Assembly: GCA_035533475.1 (NCBI GenBank)
Contig: DATLTS010000041.1
Span: 251,070 to 315,069, forward strand
Reading direction: 5' to 3'
DNA length: 64,000 bases
From: Mycobacteriales bacterium
Lineage (GTDB): Bacteria; Actinomycetota; Actinomycetes; DATLTS01
Position numbers and translations under genes: made by a program. The first letter of the stretch is position 1. Every line of letters starts with the position of its first letter. Below the pieces are notes generated by a model. That model saw nothing but the letters and a program-made list of their open reading frames with translations, was not told the origin of the DNA and did no database searches. Positions 45,334 through 54,975 of this stretch are shown here, piece by piece.

Positions 45334-45416
45334 GGGCGAGTGGCGGAATGGCAGACGCGCACGGTTCAGGTCCGTGTGTCCGTAAGGACGTGGGGGTTCA
45401 ACTCCCCCCTCGCCCA
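45334..45416 (+). tRNA. tRNA-Leu (CAG anticodon)
   Basis: 83-nt class II tRNA; acceptor GGGCGAG pairs with CTCGCCC; anticodon CAG at 45367-45369; variable arm GTGTCCGTAAGGACG; T-arm GGGGG-TTCAACT-CCCCC. Intact. Its 3' 26 bases recur three times downstream (47416, 50265, 53547), marking it as an integration target. Confidence 0.97.
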
Positions 45417-45422
45417 CTTCAG

Positions 45423-45450
45423 AAAAGGCCTTGTGACCAGGGCTTTTGTT
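45423..45450 (+). terminator. Possible intrinsic terminator after tRNA-Leu
   Basis: AAAAG and CCT (45423-45431) can pair with AGG and CTTTT (45439-45447) around a short loop, with one G-G mismatch, followed by T-rich sequence. Modest stem. Confidence 0.45.
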
Positions 45451-45523
45451 CTTCACAGGACACGATGTCATCGCCAAGGCATCACCACCGGGGAGATGCA
45501 GGCGGATCCCCCACGTCACGGCG

Positions 45524-45892
45524 CTATTCGGTGATGGGAAGCAAGCGGACCCGAACCCGGTCGGGGCCAGCGATGACAACCGCTCCAGTGCGCAGGCTGT
45601 CCTCGACATCGCCCAAGTAGCCCTGCAAGAGCCTGGCTTGCTGGTCGGGGCGATGTGGCGCACGACGGAAGATCACGATGCTCGGCCCAGGGTGACGACC
45701 GAGCGCGAGCAACTCGCCAAAGTCAGTGTCGGCCGAAACGAGCACGCGCTCGTCCACTGCGGCCGCGGCCAGGACTCGCTCATCTAGGGCGCCCAGCAGC
45801 CCGAGATCACCGACGTGGACAGCGTCGTGTCCTGCCTGTGCGAGCAGAGCTGCAACCCGTGCCGAAAGCGACTCGTCGACGAGGAATTTCAC
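45524..45892 (-). CDS. DUF5615-family PIN-like toxin
   Basis: 122 aa. Begins MKFLVDESLSARVAALLAQAGHDAVHV, with VLVSADTDFGELLALGRHPGPSIVIFR; acidic residues of the PIN-like fold are intact (Asp6, Glu7, Asp pair at SADTDF). Start overlaps the DUF433 antitoxin stop by 4 bp. Putative RNase toxin of a type II pair. Confidence 0.85.
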   Translation of the reverse strand: MKFLVDESLSARVAALLAQAGHDAVHVGDLGLLGALDERVLAAAAVDERVLVSADTDFGELLALGRHPGPSIVIFRRAPHRPDQQARLLQGYLGDVEDSLRTGAVVIAGPDRVRVRLLPITE

Positions 45893-46119
45893 CCGGTGGA
45901 CCGCGCCGGCAGCTCTCGCTCATCGACCGCGGCCGCCGCGTAACGGAGGGCGTCCTGGAGGTCCTCGCCTGTGAGCTGGGGGTACTCGGTGAGGATCTCC
46001 TCGCGGGCCATGCCCTCCGCGACCATGGCCACGACCGTTGCGACCGGAATCCGGGTGCCGCGGATACACGGCACTCCACCCATGATCCGGTGATCGACGG
46101 AGATCCGCTCGAAGGCCAT
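45889..46119 (-). CDS. DUF433 antitoxin
   Basis: 76 aa. The DUF433 signature RISVDHRIMGGVPCIRGTRIPVATVVAMVAEGM and LTEYPQLTGEDLQDALRYAA is complete. DUF433 proteins pair with DUF5615 toxins, as here. Divergent from the pRiA4b-like gene. Confidence 0.88.
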   Translation of the reverse strand: MAFERISVDHRIMGGVPCIRGTRIPVATVVAMVAEGMAREEILTEYPQLTGEDLQDALRYAAAAVDERELPARSTG

Positions 46120-46172
46120 GGCCCAATGTTACGCGTCACGAGGCCGGAAAGATCATCAACTACTGTCGTCCG

Positions 46173-47264
46173 GTGCGGACGACTCGGCTGCGGGTGACCC
46201 TTCGCGAGGTGGCCCCGCCGGTGGTGCGGGTGATCGACGTTCCAGCTGCCTACAGCTTGCCGGAGTTGCATCTGGTCTTGCAGGTGGCCCTGGGTTGGAC
46301 GGAGAGTCACCTGCACCAGTTCGTCGCCCGAGATCTCCGGTACGGCGTGCCAGACGACGACGACTGGGATGACCAACAAGACGAGGCTGGTGTGCGCCTG
46401 CGAGATATGCCCGCGCTATTCACCTACCTCTACGACTTCGGGGACGGGTGGGAGCACGACGTCGAGGTGCTCGGGCCGGGCGAGGATGAGCCTGGCTGCA
46501 GGTACGGCGAGGGCACGTGTCCACCGGAGGACTGCGGTGGCCCTGGCGGCTATGCAGACCTGCTGGAAGCCCTCGCTGACCCGTCGCACGAGGAGCACGA
46601 GCAGATGCGGGACTGGGTCGGAAACAGACTCGCGGCGTTCGACCAGGCCGAAGCCGATCGGCAGGTGCGGCGCATGGTCGGTGAGGTGCCAGCGAGCGTC
46701 CGCCTGGTGCTCGACCTCGCGAAGGAGGGCGTCAAGCTGACACCAGGAGGGCGCTTACCGAGGAGCTTCGTTCGCGTAGTGCAAGAGCAGCGCCCTGGCT
46801 GGGCATGGTCCGAGCGTCCTGCATCGATCGAGGACGACCTGCCCCCACTGTCGGCGCTTCACGATCAGCTGCGGGACGTGGGTCTGCTGCGTCTCCACCG
46901 CGGTGTCCTGGCACCGACCAAGGCCGCGGCCGAGAACCTCGACATCGTCGGCCGATTGCGTTCCTGGTTTCCTTCGGGGAAGTTCACGACGATCGTGGCC
47001 GAGTGGACGGTTGCGACCTTGACGGCCGCCGGGCTCCAGTCGCCAGAGGCCCTCGCGGCCGCAGTATTCCCCCAGCTCGGGCGCGGCTGGGAGTCGGAAG
47101 CACAGCCGCTGACGGAAGCAGACGTCCGGCACATGATCTACAGCCTGTCGCCACTGCTCCGTGGCCTGGACCTGGTCGAGACCGATCTGAGGGATTGGCG
47201 AGCTGGCCCATCTGCTCGGTCATTGCTGTCGGGTACCACGATCATCACCGCCTGCTGGTCGTGA
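46173..47264 (+). CDS. Plasmid pRiA4b ORF-3-like protein
   Basis: 363 aa from GTG. The N-terminal half is the pRiA4b ORF-3 domain (RLRVTLREVAPPVVRVIDVPA, LHLVLQVALGWTESHLHQFV, YLYDFGDGWEHDVEVL, CPPEDCGGPGGYADLLEAL). The C-terminal half is alpha-helical and unrecognised; the last 30 residues look less regular and might reflect frameshift. Family is common on mobile elements; function unknown. Confidence 0.82.
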   Translation: MRTTRLRVTLREVAPPVVRVIDVPAAYSLPELHLVLQVALGWTESHLHQFVARDLRYGVPDDDDWDDQQDEAGVRLRDMPALFTYLYDFGDGWEHDVEVLGPGEDEPGCRYGEGTCPPEDCGGPGGYADLLEALADPSHEEHEQMRDWVGNRLAAFDQAEADRQVRRMVGEVPASVRLVLDLAKEGVKLTPGGRLPRSFVRVVQEQRPGWAWSERPASIEDDLPPLSALHDQLRDVGLLRLHRGVLAPTKAAAENLDIVGRLRSWFPSGKFTTIVAEWTVATLTAAGLQSPEALAAAVFPQLGRGWESEAQPLTEADVRHMIYSLSPLLRGLDLVETDLRDWRAGPSARSLLSGTTIITACWS

Positions 47265-47286
47265 CGGGGTCCGTCTCACGAGACTC

Positions 47287-47441
47287 AAGATCATCGGTGA
47301 TGCCAGGAGGCATCAGCGACCGCAAGGCAACAGCGCCGAGGGGCTCGCAACGGCGTCGTATAGCCGCGTCGGCCCGCGCGTTCGCGGTAAAGTGCCTGGT
47401 CAGGGAGTCGCGGCAAGGGGTTCAACTCCCCCGTCGCCCAC
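47287..47441 (+). repeat. Dispersed repeat copy A: hairpin plus tRNA-Leu 3'-end-like tail
   Basis: Begins AAGATCATCGGTGATGCC and contains TGATGCC-AGGA-GGCATCA; ends in a 26-base segment (47416-47441) matching the tRNA-Leu 3' end at 24 of 26 positions. Similarity to copy B continues about 30 bases further (ATCCACAGAT then TTGACCTGG). The 203-bp gene-free gap here is essentially this repeat. Confidence 0.88.
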
Positions 47442-47467
47442 CATCCACAGATCCCGATTGACCTGGG

Positions 47468-48076
47468 CTACCTTCGCCCCCGGGCGTCGCGGCGTCGAGG
47501 CCGCGCCATCCAGAACGCGTAGGCCGCGGTCTCTCGCTGAGCGACCCGGGCCCGTATCGCCGGCAAGGCGGCACCAGCCCCGGCGAGCAGACCTGCTATT
47601 GCCAGTGGCGGCGCGAAAGTTCCAGCGATCAGCACGCTGCCCGTCGCCAAACCCGTGGGCGCAGCCAGGTCAACCACGCTGCGGCGGCGCAATTCGCGCC
47701 CGAGCTTGTCACCCGCGGCCGAGAGGTCGGCGGCGACGTCGGCGATTTCGCTGGCACCAGCGGCCAAGTCGCCAGCCTCGACCGTACGCAGAGCGGCGGC
47801 TGTGGCGCGGCGAAGCGCTTCGACACGGGGCTCGCCGTTGGCGATCTTGACAAGAAGGTCAGGGCTGGCGTCGGGAAGCCACGGAACCTCTGCCCAAACC
47901 GCACCGCTGATGTCGAAGTCGCCCGCGCGAGGAAGAGGGGCACGTCGCCGCCGGAGCGCGCGAGCCCTGAACGGGCTGCCGGTGACGAGGTCGGCTCCGA
48001 TCACCGCCGCCGCGGCAAGCTCGCTGTCGAGTTGCTTGGTCAGCTGCGCGACTGCTTGGCGCCGGACCGTGTACAA
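47468..48076 (-). CDS. C-terminal portion of an amber-interrupted protein (membrane segment)
   Basis: 202 aa if begun at the TTG at 48076, but the same frame is open further upstream to the TAG at 48194-48196 and reads like coding sequence (RLDPSSVEQPDPGGVLVRGR). It is in the same frame as the upstream gene, so the two are probably one protein broken by a single TAG. Helical N-terminal part (AVAQLTKQLDSELAAAA), then two short hydrophobic segments (GSVLIAGTFAPPLAIAGLLAGAGAAL). No domain recognised. Confidence 0.55.
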   Translation of the reverse strand: MYTVRRQAVAQLTKQLDSELAAAAVIGADLVTGSPFRARALRRRRAPLPRAGDFDISGAVWAEVPWLPDASPDLLVKIANGEPRVEALRRATAAALRTVEAGDLAAGASEIADVAADLSAAGDKLGRELRRRSVVDLAAPTGLATGSVLIAGTFAPPLAIAGLLAGAGAALPAIRARVAQRETAAYAFWMARPRRRDARGRR

Positions 48077-48193
48077 CCATGGCGCGTAGTCGTGAGCAGG
48101 GTCGTGGCGGTTGAGCAGTCGACCGCGGACGAGGACCCCGCCAGGGTCCGGCTGCTCGACGCTCGATGGGTCGAGTCGGTTCAGAAGATAGAA

Positions 48194-49096
48194 CTATCCG
48201 TCGTGTGGATAGTCGTCGACCACGTGCACGAAGGCCGCTTCGCGGGCGGTAGGCCCCTCGATCACGATCTGCTGCTCCGCCCAAGCAACATAGCTGGGGT
48301 CGGCTAGGTCGACAGCGACCATTGCATCGACGGCTTCGTCGACGAGCGCAATGGCAAGATCGGTGAACACCGGCACGAAGATGCCGGCCTCGACTAGTGG
48401 GCGGGCTTCGAGCAAGTCTGCAACTGCGCCACGCCAAGAGACCGGGTCATCGCGACGGGCAGCCGAAGTAGCAGCGAGCCCATCGTGGGCGACGTAATGA
48501 TCAGCCCAGAACATCGTCTGTCCTACTAACCGGGGTACGTCGCTGATGTCCGTGTGCAGCACCACCGGCGGTTCGGTAGTGGATGCGTCCATGGCCAAGC
48601 GGTCGAGCGTCGCGCGAGCGAGTTGCAGGGCGCCCTCGGCGAGTTCGGGGATGACGTCTTGCAGTTCCCTATCGTGTGCGCCGCTGCGAACGGCCGCGCT
48701 GTCCGCGAGTCCTCGTGTGTCGAGCAGCGAGTATCGCAGTTGACCGATTTCGGCGTGCGACAAGGTTGGCTCGAGGGATGGCGCGGCAGCTATTAGCCGA
48801 GTCGCCTCGTCTACCACGACCGGAACGGCCTGCGGCGTCGGATGTTGCACGGTCATTGGGACCGGACCCGAGGGCGGGGTGAATGCGCCTCGGCTAACTG
48901 CTGTATTTGGTGAGATGAAGATCGAATCTTCGGTGTCGTCCGGCGTCGTGGCTCCGGGTGCACTTAGGCCCCGGATCTGGTGGCAGTCCTTGTACTTGCG
49001 CCCGCTGGAACACCCCGTCGGGCCAGGTGAACCCGATCGGACTATTGCGTCTGCTTCGTTTGTTGCGAATAATGCAGATGGAGGGAAGGAGCACAA
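48194..49096 (-). CDS. Protein with degenerate SEC-C-like motif, ends at in-frame amber
   Basis: 300 aa from TTG, or 220 aa from ATG at 48856. Near the N-terminus, PGPTGCSSGRKYKDCH resembles the SEC-C zinc motif (PCPCGSGRKYKDCH) with the first two cysteines lost. The rest is acidic and helical, with no domain recognised (LVGQTMFWADHYVAHDGL, FVPVFTDLAIALVDEAVDAM). The TAG is followed in frame by 241 further codons. Divergent from the HTH antitoxin, starts nearly touching. Confidence 0.55.
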   Translation of the reverse strand: MCSFPPSALFATNEADAIVRSGSPGPTGCSSGRKYKDCHQIRGLSAPGATTPDDTEDSIFISPNTAVSRGAFTPPSGPVPMTVQHPTPQAVPVVVDEATRLIAAAPSLEPTLSHAEIGQLRYSLLDTRGLADSAAVRSGAHDRELQDVIPELAEGALQLARATLDRLAMDASTTEPPVVLHTDISDVPRLVGQTMFWADHYVAHDGLAATSAARRDDPVSWRGAVADLLEARPLVEAGIFVPVFTDLAIALVDEAVDAMVAVDLADPSYVAWAEQQIVIEGPTAREAAFVHVVDDYPHDG

Positions 49097-49097
49097 A

Positions 49098-49574
49098 GTG
49101 ACGGTCGCACTAGAAACGATCTTGCCGTCCGACGACGACGCCGCTCAGGCGGCGGGCGCCCTGCAGCCGCTGCAGTCATATCTGGCTCGCCATCCCCAGA
49201 CCTCTGAGATCGTCCACCTGATCGTGGAGGACGACGATCAGCCAGATCACGAGGGTCGGCAGGAGATTGTCGTTCCGGGCGCCGCTCTCAGGTTATTGGC
49301 GCGCGTTCTGGCGCACATGGCGGCCGGCCAAGGCGTCGCGATCGTGCCGTCAACGGCTGAACTGACGACTCAGCAAGCCGCCGACCTGCTCAACGTGTCC
49401 CGGCCGTACTTGATCCGCCTCCTTGAAGAGGGGCAGATCGACTTTCGCAAGGTAGGGACACACAGGCGCGTCTTGATGCAGAGTCTGGTCGAGTACAAGC
49501 GAGCGGATGATGCGCGCCGGCGGTCGGCGGCCGACGAGCTCGCGGCCCTTGAGCAAGAATTGGGTCTGTCCTGA
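49098..49574 (+). CDS. Excisionase-type HTH antitoxin
   Basis: 158 aa from a GTG with GGAAGGAG upstream. C-terminal helix-turn-helix ELTTQQAADLLNVSRPYLIRLLEEGQIDFRKVGTHRRV; N-terminal part is acidic. Stop is one base before the PIN toxin start, so an operon. A related but decayed gene is at 53092-53379. Confidence 0.85.
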   Translation: MTVALETILPSDDDAAQAAGALQPLQSYLARHPQTSEIVHLIVEDDDQPDHEGRQEIVVPGAALRLLARVLAHMAAGQGVAIVPSTAELTTQQAADLLNVSRPYLIRLLEEGQIDFRKVGTHRRVLMQSLVEYKRADDARRRSAADELAALEQELGLS

Positions 49575-49575
49575 C

Positions 49576-50127
49576 GTGTCGTTCGTCGTGGTATACGACG
49601 CCAACGTGCTGTACCCCAACACGCTGCGCGACCTTCTGATCCGGATTGCCCAGGCGGGCTTGGTACAAGCAAAGTGGACCGATCAGATCCTCGATGAGGT
49701 AGACGGTGCGCTTCGCCGAAAACGACCGGACATCGCCGAGGACAAGCTTGCGCGCCGACGGGCGCTGATGAATGACGCTGTGCCGGATCGCCTCGTTACG
49801 GGCTACGAGCGGCTGATACCGGTACTCAGCCTTCCTGACGAGAAGGACCGACATGTGCTCGCCGCTGCTATCCGCGCGAAGGCTCAAGTCCTGGTCACGG
49901 ACAATATCCAGCACTTTCCCGCCGATTACCTCGCCGAGTGGGATATCGACCCGAAGACCGCCGACGATTTCGTTGTTGATCAAGTGCACCTGAACCGCCA
50001 GCTGGTCTACGGGGCCGTCCAGCGGATCGCCGATAGTCGGAAGAACCCGCCGGTGACCGTCGCCGACGTGCTTCAGCAACTGGAGAACAGCGGTATCCAG
50101 CAAGGCGTCGCCATGTTGCGTGGGTAG
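49576..50127 (+). CDS. PIN-domain toxin partnered with HTH antitoxin
   Basis: 183 aa from GTG. PIN residues in VVYDANVLYPNTLRDLLIRIA, WTDQILDEVDGAL, LPDEKDRHVLAAAIRAKAQVLVTDNIQHFP; a C-terminal helical tail (RIADSRKNPPVTVADVLQQLENSG) is typical of this HTH-paired group. Expected RNase toxin. Confidence 0.87.
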   Translation: MSFVVVYDANVLYPNTLRDLLIRIAQAGLVQAKWTDQILDEVDGALRRKRPDIAEDKLARRRALMNDAVPDRLVTGYERLIPVLSLPDEKDRHVLAAAIRAKAQVLVTDNIQHFPADYLAEWDIDPKTADDFVVDQVHLNRQLVYGAVQRIADSRKNPPVTVADVLQQLENSGIQQGVAMLRG

Positions 50128-50152
50128 TTCCCGACGTCGACTGCCATCCGGC

Positions 50153-50290
50153 AAGATCATCGGTGATGCCAGGGGGCATCACCGACCGCGAGTCAAGGGC
50201 GCCGAACGGCTCGCAACGGCGTCGTACTGCCTCGTCGGCCCACGTGTTCGCGGGAGTCGCGGTAGGGGGTTCAACTCCCCCCCCGCCCAC
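50153..50290 (+). repeat. Dispersed repeat copy B
   Basis: Same order as copy A: AAGATCATCGGTGATGCC, hairpin TGATGCC-AGGG-GGCATCA, CTCGCAACGGCGTCGTA, then a 26-base tail (50265-50290) matching the tRNA-Leu 3' end at 25 of 26. It lacks the 17-base AGTGCCTGGTCAG block present in copies A and C. Shared 3' flank runs to about 50325. The rest of the 350-bp gene-free stretch to 50479 shows no convincing gene. Confidence 0.88.
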
Positions 50291-50479
50291 TATCCACAGA
50301 TAGCCGTTGACCTGGCCTTTCTCGCCGACGGTGCACGATCCCGATGACCGAGGCCATAGCCGCGGAGAACTCAACCGATGAGTTCCAGGTGCTCAAGGCA
50401 GACGTGGCCTGCGAAATCCGGTGGATCGGGCGTCCTCCGGGCAGGCGGCCTGCGGTGCAGCGGTTCGTCAGCGATCACC

Positions 50480-51664
50480 TCAGTCGTCGGGCTGTCGTTG
50501 GATGTAGTTCGCGATACCAGGGACTGTGAATGCAAGCAGGCCTCGGTCCGGTGCGTAGACAAGGCCCTTCTTGATGAGTTGATCTCGCGAGACAGACAGG
50601 TCTGTGCTGCGCCTCATCCCCATTTCGCGGGCGAGTTCAGCTATGGCGATCTGGACACCGTCACCATGTCCGGCCATCGCCCGCATCATCCGCCGCTGTG
50701 CCGCTGTGGCGCGACTCCACCGCGACAGGTAGAGCCCGACGTCGATCTCCTCGCGAGCCGCGACGAGGCCAGCGGCGGCGTCTTCGGCATCGATCGGGCT
50801 GCCCTTGGCCAAGTTCCAGATGCTGCGGCCGGCTGTCTGAAGGAAGTACGGATAACCACTCGTGGCCGCCCGGGTTATATCCAGAGCCTCCGCGCTCCAG
50901 GTGACCCCGAGCGATTCCGCCGGTCGGTTCAGGGCTTGCTCGGCAGCCTGGTCGTCGAGCGGTCCGACAGCTCGGTAGTTGTACAACCGCTCGGCATAGC
51001 TCGTGGCTTCGGCGAGAATGCCCGGCAGCGAAGGAAGACCGGCGCCCATCAGCAAGGTCGGGAGAGGATTGTCTCCTTGCCCGGAATCGTGAATTGCTCG
51101 GTTGATGGCCGCTAATTCGCGAGCAGGTGCGTCCTGTAATTCGTCGACCACCAGCAGGGCGCCCACCCCGAGTTCCCGCGCGGTACTTCCGAGTTCCCGC
51201 AGCAGGTCGGTCAAGTCGGTGGCCGCATCGCCGCTGTCGGCGTGCCCGCGGGTTGCATCCACTTCCACGCCGAAGGTGTAGGTGCCGGTTGGGTCAACCG
51301 TGACGGAGAAGGACTTGAACACCCCCAGCAGTCGGCGAAGACGACCGACATCATGAGTGCCCATCGCTGCGCGCAGACCCTGGTACAGGCTTCGCGTCAG
51401 ACCTGGCAGGAGAGTCGAACGGTCGCCCACCGCCTCGGCCTTGCTCACCAGCCAGCGTCGGTCACGAGCGCGGGACGCGACTTCGTTCAGCAGAACCGTC
51501 TTGCCGACGCCGCGTAAGCCGTGCCACACCACGCCACGTTCGGCATAACCCAGCTCAGTGCGCTGAAGCGTTACGTCGACAATAGACAGGTCGTCGTCCC
51601 GGCCCGCAAGCTCCGGCGGCCGAACGCCGGCACCTGGCTGGTAGGGATTCCGAAGCGGATCCAT
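50480..51664 (-). CDS. AAA-type ATP-binding protein (ORC/STAND-like), orphan
   Basis: 394 aa from ATG. Walker A GLRGVGKTVLLNEVA (about residues 50-64), Walker B ALLVVDELQDAP, sensor region LLMGAGLPSLPGIL, ending in a winged-helix-like part (MGMRRSTDLSVSRDQLIKKGLVYAP). Resembles the archaeal-type or mobile-element ATPases annotated simply as ATP-binding protein. No partner nuclease adjoins it. Sits alone between repeat copies B and D. Confidence 0.8.
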   Translation of the reverse strand: MDPLRNPYQPGAGVRPPELAGRDDDLSIVDVTLQRTELGYAERGVVWHGLRGVGKTVLLNEVASRARDRRWLVSKAEAVGDRSTLLPGLTRSLYQGLRAAMGTHDVGRLRRLLGVFKSFSVTVDPTGTYTFGVEVDATRGHADSGDAATDLTDLLRELGSTARELGVGALLVVDELQDAPARELAAINRAIHDSGQGDNPLPTLLMGAGLPSLPGILAEATSYAERLYNYRAVGPLDDQAAEQALNRPAESLGVTWSAEALDITRAATSGYPYFLQTAGRSIWNLAKGSPIDAEDAAAGLVAAREEIDVGLYLSRWSRATAAQRRMMRAMAGHGDGVQIAIAELAREMGMRRSTDLSVSRDQLIKKGLVYAPDRGLLAFTVPGIANYIQRQPDD

Positions 51665-51676
51665 AAGACCTCATAA

Positions 51677-51719
51677 GGCTGACTAAGGGATTCCTTTAGT
51701 GAACCATATGAAGTCAGCC
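51677..51719. promoter_or_regulatory. Nested palindrome upstream of the ATPase gene
   Basis: GGCTGACT (51677-51684) and AGTCAGCC (51712-51719) form a perfect 8-bp inverted repeat; inside it AAGG-GATT-CCTT gives a second small palindrome. It begins 12 bp upstream of the ATPase start, so an operator is likely. Confidence 0.55.
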
Positions 51720-51724
51720 ACCCC

Positions 51725-51800
51725 AAGATCATCAGTGATGCCGTGGGGCATCACCGACCGCAACGGGGCGGCGTCGAGGAGCGCGCAACGGCGTCGTCGT
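51725..51800 (+). repeat. Dispersed repeat copy D, truncated (no tRNA tail)
   Basis: Starts AAGATCATCAGTGATGCC; hairpin TGATGCC-GTGG-GGCATCA; CGCAACGGCGTCGT follows, then similarity ends. The tRNA-Leu-like tail is missing. The remaining bases to 52059 hold no gene I can support; a weak TTGCAA-14-TGCTAC promoter-like pair precedes the next gene. Confidence 0.8.
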
Positions 51801-52059
51801 CCCGTTGCCTCACGTCAATAGGTCCGGCAAGCTCGGGTCGTTGCGTCATCCGGAAAGGTCCGCCTGACGCGCGGGGGTGACGGGGGGCTTGTGGGCGGGT
51901 CGTCAACTTCACAAGATCGCTCATCTACCTTGACCCGCTTGCATTTGATGTCTTGGCCGTCTACCGAGAAGTACCGGTACCGAAGGCGGCCAGCCCAGGG
52001 CGGCTGTCGCTCGTGGGCACTCGTTGCAAACTATGGGCCAACTTGCTACAGTGTGGGCC

Positions 52060-52347
52060 ATGGTAGAGACGGCGCACCTTGATGGTCGTGGGCGCTTAGT
52101 GCTTCCCGCGTCTGCACGTCGTCGCCTTGGCTTGGATCCGGGAACCGAACTGCTAGTCCTTTCCGACTCGCGCGGAGGCGTACGTCTCGTCCCCCGGCCA
52201 GAGGCGGCCAGGGCATTACTCGGCGCGGCTGCCGGTAGTGGGCGCGGGTCCGCCGTAGACGACCTTGTTTCCGAAAGGCGGCGGGAAGCGGCGGGAGAGA
52301 ACGCCGATACTGCGTCGACGCTCGGCCACACGCCCTCGAGTGGATGA
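52060..52347 (+). CDS. AbrB/MazE-type antitoxin
   Basis: 95 aa from ATG. SpoVT/AbrB domain: HLDGRGRLVLPASARRRLGLDPGTELLVL with RGGVRLVPRP; a Gly/Ala-rich tail follows. Overlaps its toxin by 4 bp. Confidence 0.87.
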   Translation: MVETAHLDGRGRLVLPASARRRLGLDPGTELLVLSDSRGGVRLVPRPEAARALLGAAAGSGRGSAVDDLVSERRREAAGENADTASTLGHTPSSG

Positions 52348-52736
52348 CAGTGCTGGATGCATCCGCAGTCGCCGCGCTGTTGTTTGAGGAGCCCGGCGGC
52401 GGGCGGGTGGCAGACATGATCGCGGCCGGTGACGCCGCGATCTCCGCCGTCAACTTCTCCGAGGTGGCGGCACTCTTGATGCGGCGGCAGGTGCCCGATT
52501 TGGTCGACATCATGGGCGACCTCGAGCAGCAGGTCGAGGTCGTTCCGTTCGACAGCGCACAGGCGCTTCAGGCAGCGTTCATCGCGCCGATCACAGCTGA
52601 ATATGGCTTGGGTGTGGGTGACCGGGCGTGTCTTACGCTCGCGCGTGCCCTGCAAACGCCAGTGGCGACGGCTGATCGTGTCTGGAAAGACATAGCCGAC
52701 TCTGTCGGGGTCCAGGTAGAGTTGGTTCGCGGCTAG
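52344..52736 (+). CDS. VapC-type PIN-domain toxin
   Basis: 130 aa. PIN acidic residues in TVLDASAVAALLFEEPG, VNFSEVAALL, LGVGDRACLTLARAL and VATADRVWKDI. RNase toxin neutralised by the overlapping AbrB-type antitoxin. Confidence 0.9.
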   Translation: MTVLDASAVAALLFEEPGGGRVADMIAAGDAAISAVNFSEVAALLMRRQVPDLVDIMGDLEQQVEVVPFDSAQALQAAFIAPITAEYGLGVGDRACLTLARALQTPVATADRVWKDIADSVGVQVELVRG

Positions 52737-52976
52737 GGGTAGCGCCCAGGTCTGGGGTTCAAGCTCGCCACCCGTGCGAAGAATACGTGCCGATACCGTT
52801 CCGGGACTTCCGTGGCGAAGTCGACGGCTCTCTGCTGAAGATCAGCCTCGGGCATGCCTCAGTTGCGCAGGAGGAAGTCGATCTCCTCGAGTTCCTCCAG
52901 GGCCGCCCATTCTCCACCGGGCGGTCGCGAATCGCCAGCACCCAGGCCTGACAGCAACCCGCAGATCGACAGCAAC

Positions 52977-53091
52977 TCAACGGCATCGCCGAAGTCCGGC
53001 ACCGCCACAACGCTCGAGGTTGTTGAGCAACGAGGCCAGATCCATCGGCGGGTTGGAGAGGTCGCGTGCTTGGTCGGCCAGAACTCGCAGC
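52977..53091 (-). pseudogene. Tail of a PIN toxin (remnant)
   Basis: In the frame next to that of the antitoxin remnant, LRVLADQARDLSNPPMDLAS and LLNNLERCG correspond to the C-terminal tail of the intact toxin at 49576 (RIADSRKNPPVTVADVLQQLENSG). A further frame change continues VAVPDFGDAVELL. The PIN core itself is gone. Confidence 0.65.
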
Positions 53092-53379
53092 GCCGGCCTC
53101 CAACAGTTTGATCAACGTCGGCCGGCTAATCCCGAGCAGGTCTGCTGCCTGCTGGGTAGTCAACTGCTGGCCGAGCGGGGCAAGAGTTACCGCCTGCCCA
53201 CGGCGCATCGCGGTGACCACTGCGGCCAGCAGGCCGCGAAGTTCATCGGGCAGCCTCACCGACATGCCGGCGGCTCCGCAGAGCGCGACTGGAGTGTCGC
53301 CCGCAAGCACCGTTTGCGCCTTGTTGAGTGCTTGCGCGTCCCTCGCTGGTAGCACCGTCAGATCTCGATCTCCAGACAC
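53092..53379 (-). pseudogene. Truncated excisionase-type HTH antitoxin (remnant)
   Basis: 96 codons from a GTG with GGAGGTGAAC upstream, running through the helix-turn-helix LTTQQAADLLGISRPTLIKLLEAG, after which the frame is lost. The second HTH half and the DNA-binding wing (FRKVGTHRRV in the intact homologue) are deleted. The open frame from 53478 starts inside repeat copy C, which is an artefact. Confidence 0.7.
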
Positions 53380-53439
53380 GTTCACCTCCGACCCCGATTC
53401 CAACAGGACGGGAAATGGAAAGGATCGCAACACTCTACG

Positions 53440-53572
53440 AAGATCATCAGTGATGCCAGGGGGCATAACCGACCGCACCTCAACGGCGTCGTACAGCGCG
53501 TCGACCTCCGGCGAGCCGGTCCAGTGCCTGGTCAGGAGGTTGTGGCTCGAGGTTCAACTCCCGCTCGCCCAC
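53440..53572 (+). repeat. Dispersed repeat copy C
   Basis: AAGATCATCAGTGATGCC, hairpin TGATGCC-AGGG-GGCATAA (one mismatch), AGTGCCTGGTCAGG block, then a tail (53547-53572) ending GGTTCAACTCCCGCTCGCCCAC, close to the tRNA-Leu 3' end. The stretch 53573-53714 shows nothing recognisable. Confidence 0.85.
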
Positions 53573-53714
53573 TTTGTGCCCAGAGGCTGGTTCAGGTGTG
53601 CTGGGCCCCCGGCGCTGCGTCAACGGGCAGGGGCTCACCCAGCGAGACCGCGATCCAGCCTGTTACGCGGTTCGGCGACCCTCACGGCGCCCCTACTCGG
53701 CTGCCACCAACTAG

Positions 53715-54821: not shown

Positions 54822-54844
54822 GGGCCGGTGGATCCCTTCTTCCG

Positions 54845-54975
54845 CCACCGCCTACCGAGTTAGCTGTCGGGTTCGGGCGCGGAAGTCGCCCTACGGGGAT
54901 GGAACCCCGATTCACCCCAAGGGACCTGGGTCCCCGGTTCCCGGTCGCCCGGGATTCGGCGGTGCCGTCCCGCCC
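54845..54975 (-). promoter_or_regulatory. c-di-AMP riboswitch (ydaO-yuaA leader)
   Basis: On the minus strand, conserved blocks in order: GCCGAATCC, GGGGACCCAGG, TTGGGGTGAATCGG, TAGGGCGACTTCCGC, and GACAGCTAACTCGGTAGGCG next to the gene. This matches the ydaO class found upstream of actinobacterial NlpC/P60 and rpf genes. Outer boundary approximate. Confidence 0.88.

Follow-up and report, generated by a model that had tools for sequence, protein, structure and literature searches.

In a Mycobacteriales genome (NCBI GenBank assembly GCA_035533475.1), a tRNA-Leu(CAG) gene is followed by four short units, each about 1.5-2.9 kb long and closed by a shared repeat. We interpret this zone, which lies in a 64,000-nucleotide stretch of contig DATLTS010000041.1 (positions 251,070 to 315,069; hereafter the window), as very probably a tandem accretion of four integrase-less remnants that resemble cis-mobilizable elements (CIMEs) and come from a family of actinobacterial integrative and mobilizable elements (IMEs). 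The tRNA gene was located on the plus strand with ARAGORN, and its last 26 nucleotides recur downstream at positions 50265 (25/26 identical) and 47416 (24/26), with a third, gapped match at 53547 in which one base is deleted. These tRNA ends sit within a larger repeat present in four copies (A to D; Table 1), of which A, B and D carry the tRNA tail and C has lost it. A first-pass annotation made from the sequence alone had reported the recurring tRNA ends and the larger repeat, and had read them as footprints of tRNA-targeted site-specific integration; on all of these points it was right at the core. When copy B was searched against the whole 3.27-Mb host genome, it matched copy A (E 4.8e-41), copy C (3.5e-12), copy D (6.6e-12) and the tRNA end (1.1e-5), with nothing else below E 0.2. 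The repeat is therefore far beyond chance and confined to the tRNA-Leu locus in this genome. It folds as a strong hairpin, GGTGATGCC-N4-GGCATCACC, with the pair perfect in copy B and carrying one or two mismatches in the other copies.

Attachment-site anatomy of the element family

The hairpin becomes interpretable through related Actinobacteria, where the same 9-mer occurs as a direct pair about 60-74 bp behind a tRNA gene, just before an integrase gene. An inverted pair of the 9-mer at the far end and a direct pair at the integrase side are what one expects of integrase arm-type sites. We therefore take the window hairpin as two putative sites of this type in inverted orientation, and the whole repeat as the likely right end at which the integrase of a tyrosine-integrase element family would dock. 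In genome G119, tRNA-Leu(CAG) is followed by the direct pair GGCATAACC-GA-GGCATAACC at +63/+74 and then by an intact tyrosine integrase (contig C146; P0001, 420 aa, Phage_integrase), and the right end on contig C120 reads GTTATGCC-N4-GGCATAACC. Genome G159 has a left pair GGCATCACG/GGCATCACC at +60/+71, a right pair GGTGATGCC/GGCATCACC 8.4 kb further on, and an integrase truncated to a match of about 99 residues. The left 9-mer class lies at +60 to +74 in G159, G119 and G395, and unit 1 of the window has it at +61 (GGCATCACC), together with a core-flanking ACCAGG at +19 on the left and a CCTGGT at -47 plus the inverted pair on the right. Most elements have motifs of the ACCTGC type on both sides of the core, near +18 to +21 on the left and -46 to -49 on the right; the left one (ACCTGC/ACCTGG, at +18 to +21) is present in 6/7 other elements compared with unit 1.

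Homologous integrases adjoin tRNA-Leu(GAG) (G395, G107), tRNA-Ala (G085), tRNA-Gly (G010), tRNA-Leu(CAG) (G165) and tRNA-His (G269), and right ends were located in G085, G165, G269 and G010; in G181 none was found within 80 kb. The arm-type-like motif varies between elements (GGCATAAC, GGCATCAC, GGGTGCAC, GGGAACA, GACAGCAC) yet agrees between both ends of each, and this two-ended sharing is also seen in G395, G165, G269 and G010. Summed over eight elements including unit 1 of the window, the left-right motif match is 156, a value reached by 4 of the 40,320 permutations, which is indicative rather than exact since the test counts related elements as independent (three share GGCATAAC). A 62%-identical integrase in G035 (L100:11187-12608) is accompanied by a co-diverged direct pair (GGGGAACACC twice), and no tRNA was found beside that gene. 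In G395 (L068/L069, G395:C299:1-25787), type I restriction-like genes lie left of the right end. Just past the tRNA end is a gene for a large serine recombinase, which was first taken as the recombinase of the element; the tyrosine integrase beside tRNA-Leu(GAG), on another contig and with matching arm sites, fits better.

In G085 both ends lie on one contig about 10 kb apart, and the element has the anatomy of an IME: it runs from tRNA-Ala through the integrase gene, an HTH_17 protein that may be an excisionase, a 992-aa TrwC relaxase and a helix-turn-helix (HTH) protein to the right end CCGTTATGCC-N4-GGCATAACGG. Its integrase is 83% identical to P0001, and its HTH cargo protein is 65% identical to the HTH protein of window unit 2. 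The right end of G119 adjoins an HTH/PIN pair that is 91%/77% identical to the unit 2 pair, so that the window units are tied to the G085/G119 element family by cargo as well as by their ends. The first-pass annotation had suggested a cassette-like array as one option. An integron-like arrangement, with the repeat as an attC analogue and the units as gene cassettes, would account for units of one or a few genes that each close with a hairpin repeat, and the toxin-antitoxin cargo resembles what chromosomal integrons carry. We nevertheless regard it as extremely improbable: the hairpin, an inverted arm-type pair, tracks the integrase-side pair in sequence and is separated from the tRNA core by about 110-145 nt, and the same right end belongs to the single 10-kb integrase-bearing element in G085. 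The repeat is built as a composite attachment (att) site and not as a single attC-like unit, so the cassette option lacks support. As for the IntI and attI of an integron, no integrase gene was found among the open reading frames (ORFs) scanned in the zone, IntI not having been searched genome-wide.

Distribution of the repeat and state of the tRNA-Leu site

The host is the sole member of its order in the genome collection, and DNA searches in its genus, family and order matched only the host genome. A DNA search across the class placed the repeat in one further family (f13). Searching with a covariance model of the 39-nt hairpin brought in a copy in G119, and G395 came from a pattern scan. 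The exact hairpin motif is rare, because scanning 84,980 species genomes yielded three true copies, in Frankiales metagenome-assembled genomes, and otherwise several chance matches; viral contigs gave a chance match only. Outside the host, the repeat lies at tRNA ends or in integrase-bearing elements. The same observation speaks against an unrelated intergenic or structured-RNA element that acquired a tRNA-like tail: although the strong hairpin fold would suit such an element, the repeat has no match in Rfam and in the host occurs only at tRNA-Leu, and we consider this origin next to impossible. After recognising the integrase-side sites, we no longer read the hairpin as a structured RNA.

We compared tRNA-Leu neighborhoods by gene-level blastp; tblastx was swamped by GC-rich chance matches. 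The gene order upstream of tRNA-Leu is common across the related family. In G053 and G012 the site is empty, with the same native gene at +42/+87 and no arm sites nearby, and behind the same tRNA-Leu G119 and G159 carry different inserts, integrase-bearing in the former and with the integrase cut to about 99 aa in the latter. Empty and variably filled sites, which the annotation had named as a check on its reading, are therefore present and favour that reading. The contigs of G149 (L041:19975-19990) and G129 (L043:1-29) stop no more than about 30 bases past the tRNA-Leu core, which suggests breaks of the kind that repeats or mixed or variable strains would cause.

The four units and their origin

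The units and their ends are listed in Table 1. Pfam agrees with the cargo named in the first-pass annotation (DUF5615, DUF433, PRiA4_ORF3, HTH_17/PIN_3, AAA_16, MazE_antitoxin/PIN), and the two decayed genes described there hold up: a single in-frame TAG (48194-48196) splits the otherwise open frame of unit 2, whose SEC-C match is weak, and the HTH gene of unit 4 is degenerate. PADLOC gave no strong match among the five window proteins submitted. The NlpC/P60-like gene that comes after the array has a minus-strand c-di-AMP riboswitch upstream of it, at 54834-54971 (Rfam RF00379, 93 bits).

Table 1. Features of the tRNA-Leu(CAG) zone (positions in the window)
Feature	Position	Strand	Source
tRNA-Leu(CAG), putative integration target; repeated core = last 26 nt, 45392-45417	45334-45417	+	ARAGORN; direct repeat
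Unit 1: DUF5615 (45524-45892 -), DUF433 (45889-46119 -), PRiA4_ORF3 protein (46173-47264 +), right end A	45418-47441	+	Pfam
Unit 1 left core-flanking motif ACCAGG, at +19	45436-45441	+	
Unit 1 left arm-type-like site GGCATCACC, at +61	45478-45486	+	
Putative right attachment end A: arm-type-like pair 47296-47304 / 47309-47317, CCTGGT motif at -47, tRNA tail 47416-47441 (24/26)	47286-47441	+	
Unit 2: left end ATCCACAGATCCCGATTGACCTGG, split SEC-C-like protein (47468-49096 -), HTH_17, PIN_3, right end B	47442-50290	+	Pfam
Unit 2 HTH_17 protein (homologous part 49098-49571)	within 48879-49574	+	
Unit 2 PIN_3 protein	within 49507-50127	+	
Putative right attachment end B: perfect pair 50162-50170 / 50175-50183, tRNA tail 50265-50290 (25/26)	50152-50290	+	
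Unit 3: left end ATCCACAGATAGCCGTTGACCTGG, AAA_16 ATPase (50480-51664 -), right end C	50291-51825	+	Pfam
Putative right attachment end C: pair 51734-51742 / 51747-51755, tRNA core lost	51724-51825	+	
Unit 4: MazE/AbrB-type antitoxin (52024-52347 +), PIN toxin (52344-52736 +), decayed HTH (52759-53478 -), right end D	51826-53573	+	Pfam
Putative right attachment end D: pair 53449-53457 / 53462-53470 with one mismatch in each site, tRNA tail 53547-53573 decayed	53439-53573	+	

CIMEs lack integration and transfer genes, keep attachment ends, derive from IMEs or integrative and conjugative elements (ICEs) that share their att sites, and are mobilised in cis by an ICE or IME in tandem with them. Neither an integrase nor a relaxase was found when the ORFs of 45418-53573 were scanned, as the first-pass annotation had said of the integrase, and a search of the host genome gave no related integrase, the best match reaching 34% over the catalytic part. 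The right end is shared with G085, G119 and G395, and homologues of the unit 2 cargo occur in G119 and G085. Accretion in tandem is visible in the tRNA 3' copies at 47416, 50265 and 53547, at a site that is empty or differently filled in G053, G012, G119 and G159. Taken singly, unit 1 shows motifs at its two ends, in units 2 and 3 the right end is accompanied by the inner left motif only, and unit 4 has lost its left end, as copy C has its core. Directly after A and B, units 2 and 3 begin with a common left-end sequence (ATCCACAGAT...TTGACCTGG) that resembles the stretch behind tRNA-Leu in G129 and partly also in G119 and G069. This common left end, the arm-type-like pair in the hairpin and its counterpart at 45478 had escaped the first-pass annotation. 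Because the left ends of units 2-4 are incomplete, we do not claim full CIME membership for every unit.

The presumed parent family carries a tyrosine integrase and an attachment site composed of a core (the tRNA 3' end) with an ACCTGC-type motif on each side and outer putative arm-type sites, a direct pair at the integrase side and an inverted pair at the far side. Integrase binding, the order of insertion and the later deletions can be pictured as follows. The integrase would join the attP site to the tRNA-Leu end so that the tRNA is rebuilt, while the far end of the insert keeps the repeat and a copy of the tRNA end. The rebuilt tRNA would stay a target, and later inserts would stack up. 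The integrase, the relaxase and most integrase-side arm sites would have been lost by deletion or before arrival, leaving behind toxin-antitoxin-like and other cargo.

Several points weigh against this account. Recognisable ends on both sides are confined to unit 1; in units 2 and 3 the inner left motif is kept and the outer arm pair was not found within 220 nt, and the left end of unit 4, at its junction with copy C, is lost. The arm-type sites are putative, their assignment resting on where they lie and on their sequence, and the permutation result carries the qualification given above. The G119 and G395 elements each extend over two contigs, their ends being joined through shared motifs and flanking genes, and empty and filled sites are compared across families rather than strains, the host being alone in its order. 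The host assembly is in 68 contigs and 98.7% complete, which leaves room for a helper integrase outside it.

The first-pass annotation had left a choice between passenger units mobilised in trans, successive remnants and a cassette-like array. Successive remnants fit best because the unit 2 cargo matches the G119/G085 elements and unit 1 keeps both its core-flanking motifs and the arm site on the left. As for mobilisation in trans, minimal elements that are integrase-less by design, with att sites under selection, might be moved in a satellite-like manner by the integrase of a visiting or co-resident element, and this would agree with four units that all lack an integrase, are small and have almost intact right-end pairs, with both ends of unit 1, and with the right ends of this type in G159 and G139 that have no intact integrase seen beside them. 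We find it unlikely nonetheless, given that units 2-4 have no full left end, that the host genome yielded no related integrase, and that the unit 2 cargo also occurs in integrase-bearing elements and the integrase is visibly truncated in G159, both of which point to deletion derivatives. A more novel version, in which minimal toxin-antitoxin and defence-type passengers with selected att sites would be spread between Actinobacteria families by the integrases of other elements, seems to us likewise unlikely. If a related integrase does excise unit 1, tiny passengers without recombinases would be shown to remain mobile.

Significance and comparison with known systems

With the accretion of remnants as the preferred reading, a repeat that had no explanation can be read as an attachment-site code. 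In the eight elements, which sit at five kinds of tRNA, the arm-type motif varies from element to element and agrees between the two ends of each, and this provides a sequence rule for pairing ends. This rule can serve to find integrase-less remnants and to predict which integrase could move each of them. In addition, defence and toxin-antitoxin genes build up at one tRNA in little-studied Actinobacteria, with type III CBASS-like genes in G159, type I restriction-like genes in G395 and HTH/PIN pairs in several. The G159 element (L038:9724-15804) encodes a TRIP13-like AAA protein, HORMA, a SMODS cyclase and a 4TM effector, the type III CBASS-like (cyclic-oligonucleotide-based antiphage signaling system) genes, plus a GmrSD/DUF262 protein.

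The statement in the first-pass annotation that no system of this form is described was too strong: streptococci, Dehalococcoides and Streptomyces all provide described cases of CIME accretion. CIMEs and site-specific accretion are known for streptococcal ICE and IME derivatives (PMC5704250), in which, as in the window, integration and transfer genes are lost, att sites are kept and elements are stacked at one integration site; the window array differs in having four units of such small size in a row, no integrase-bearing partner and mostly incomplete left ends. At ssrA in Dehalococcoides, tandem islands are likewise bounded by copies of the 3' end of the RNA gene, and 15 that have no integration module are described as possible cis-mobilizable elements (PMC3146451). 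Those islands use the serine recombinase DsiB and ssrA, whereas the window belongs to a tyrosine integrase family at tRNA-Leu, with no related integrase found in the genome. The putative arm-type sites have a parallel in Cluster J mycobacteriophages, where pairs of them flank a tRNA-Leu core (PMC3706429); these are phages with direct repeats as flanking pairs, whereas the right pair in the window is inverted and its motif differs. Also in Actinobacteria, AICE/DAICE accretion (AICE, actinomycete integrative and conjugative element) at a Streptomyces tRNA-Arg places several elements and a decayed remnant between direct repeats (PMC9513070), again at one tRNA, but those AICEs are mostly functional and of the traB type, whereas the parent of the window units would have had a TrwC-type relaxase. 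Set beside these systems, the array adds a small but clear new case to a process already known and does not amount to a new kind of system.

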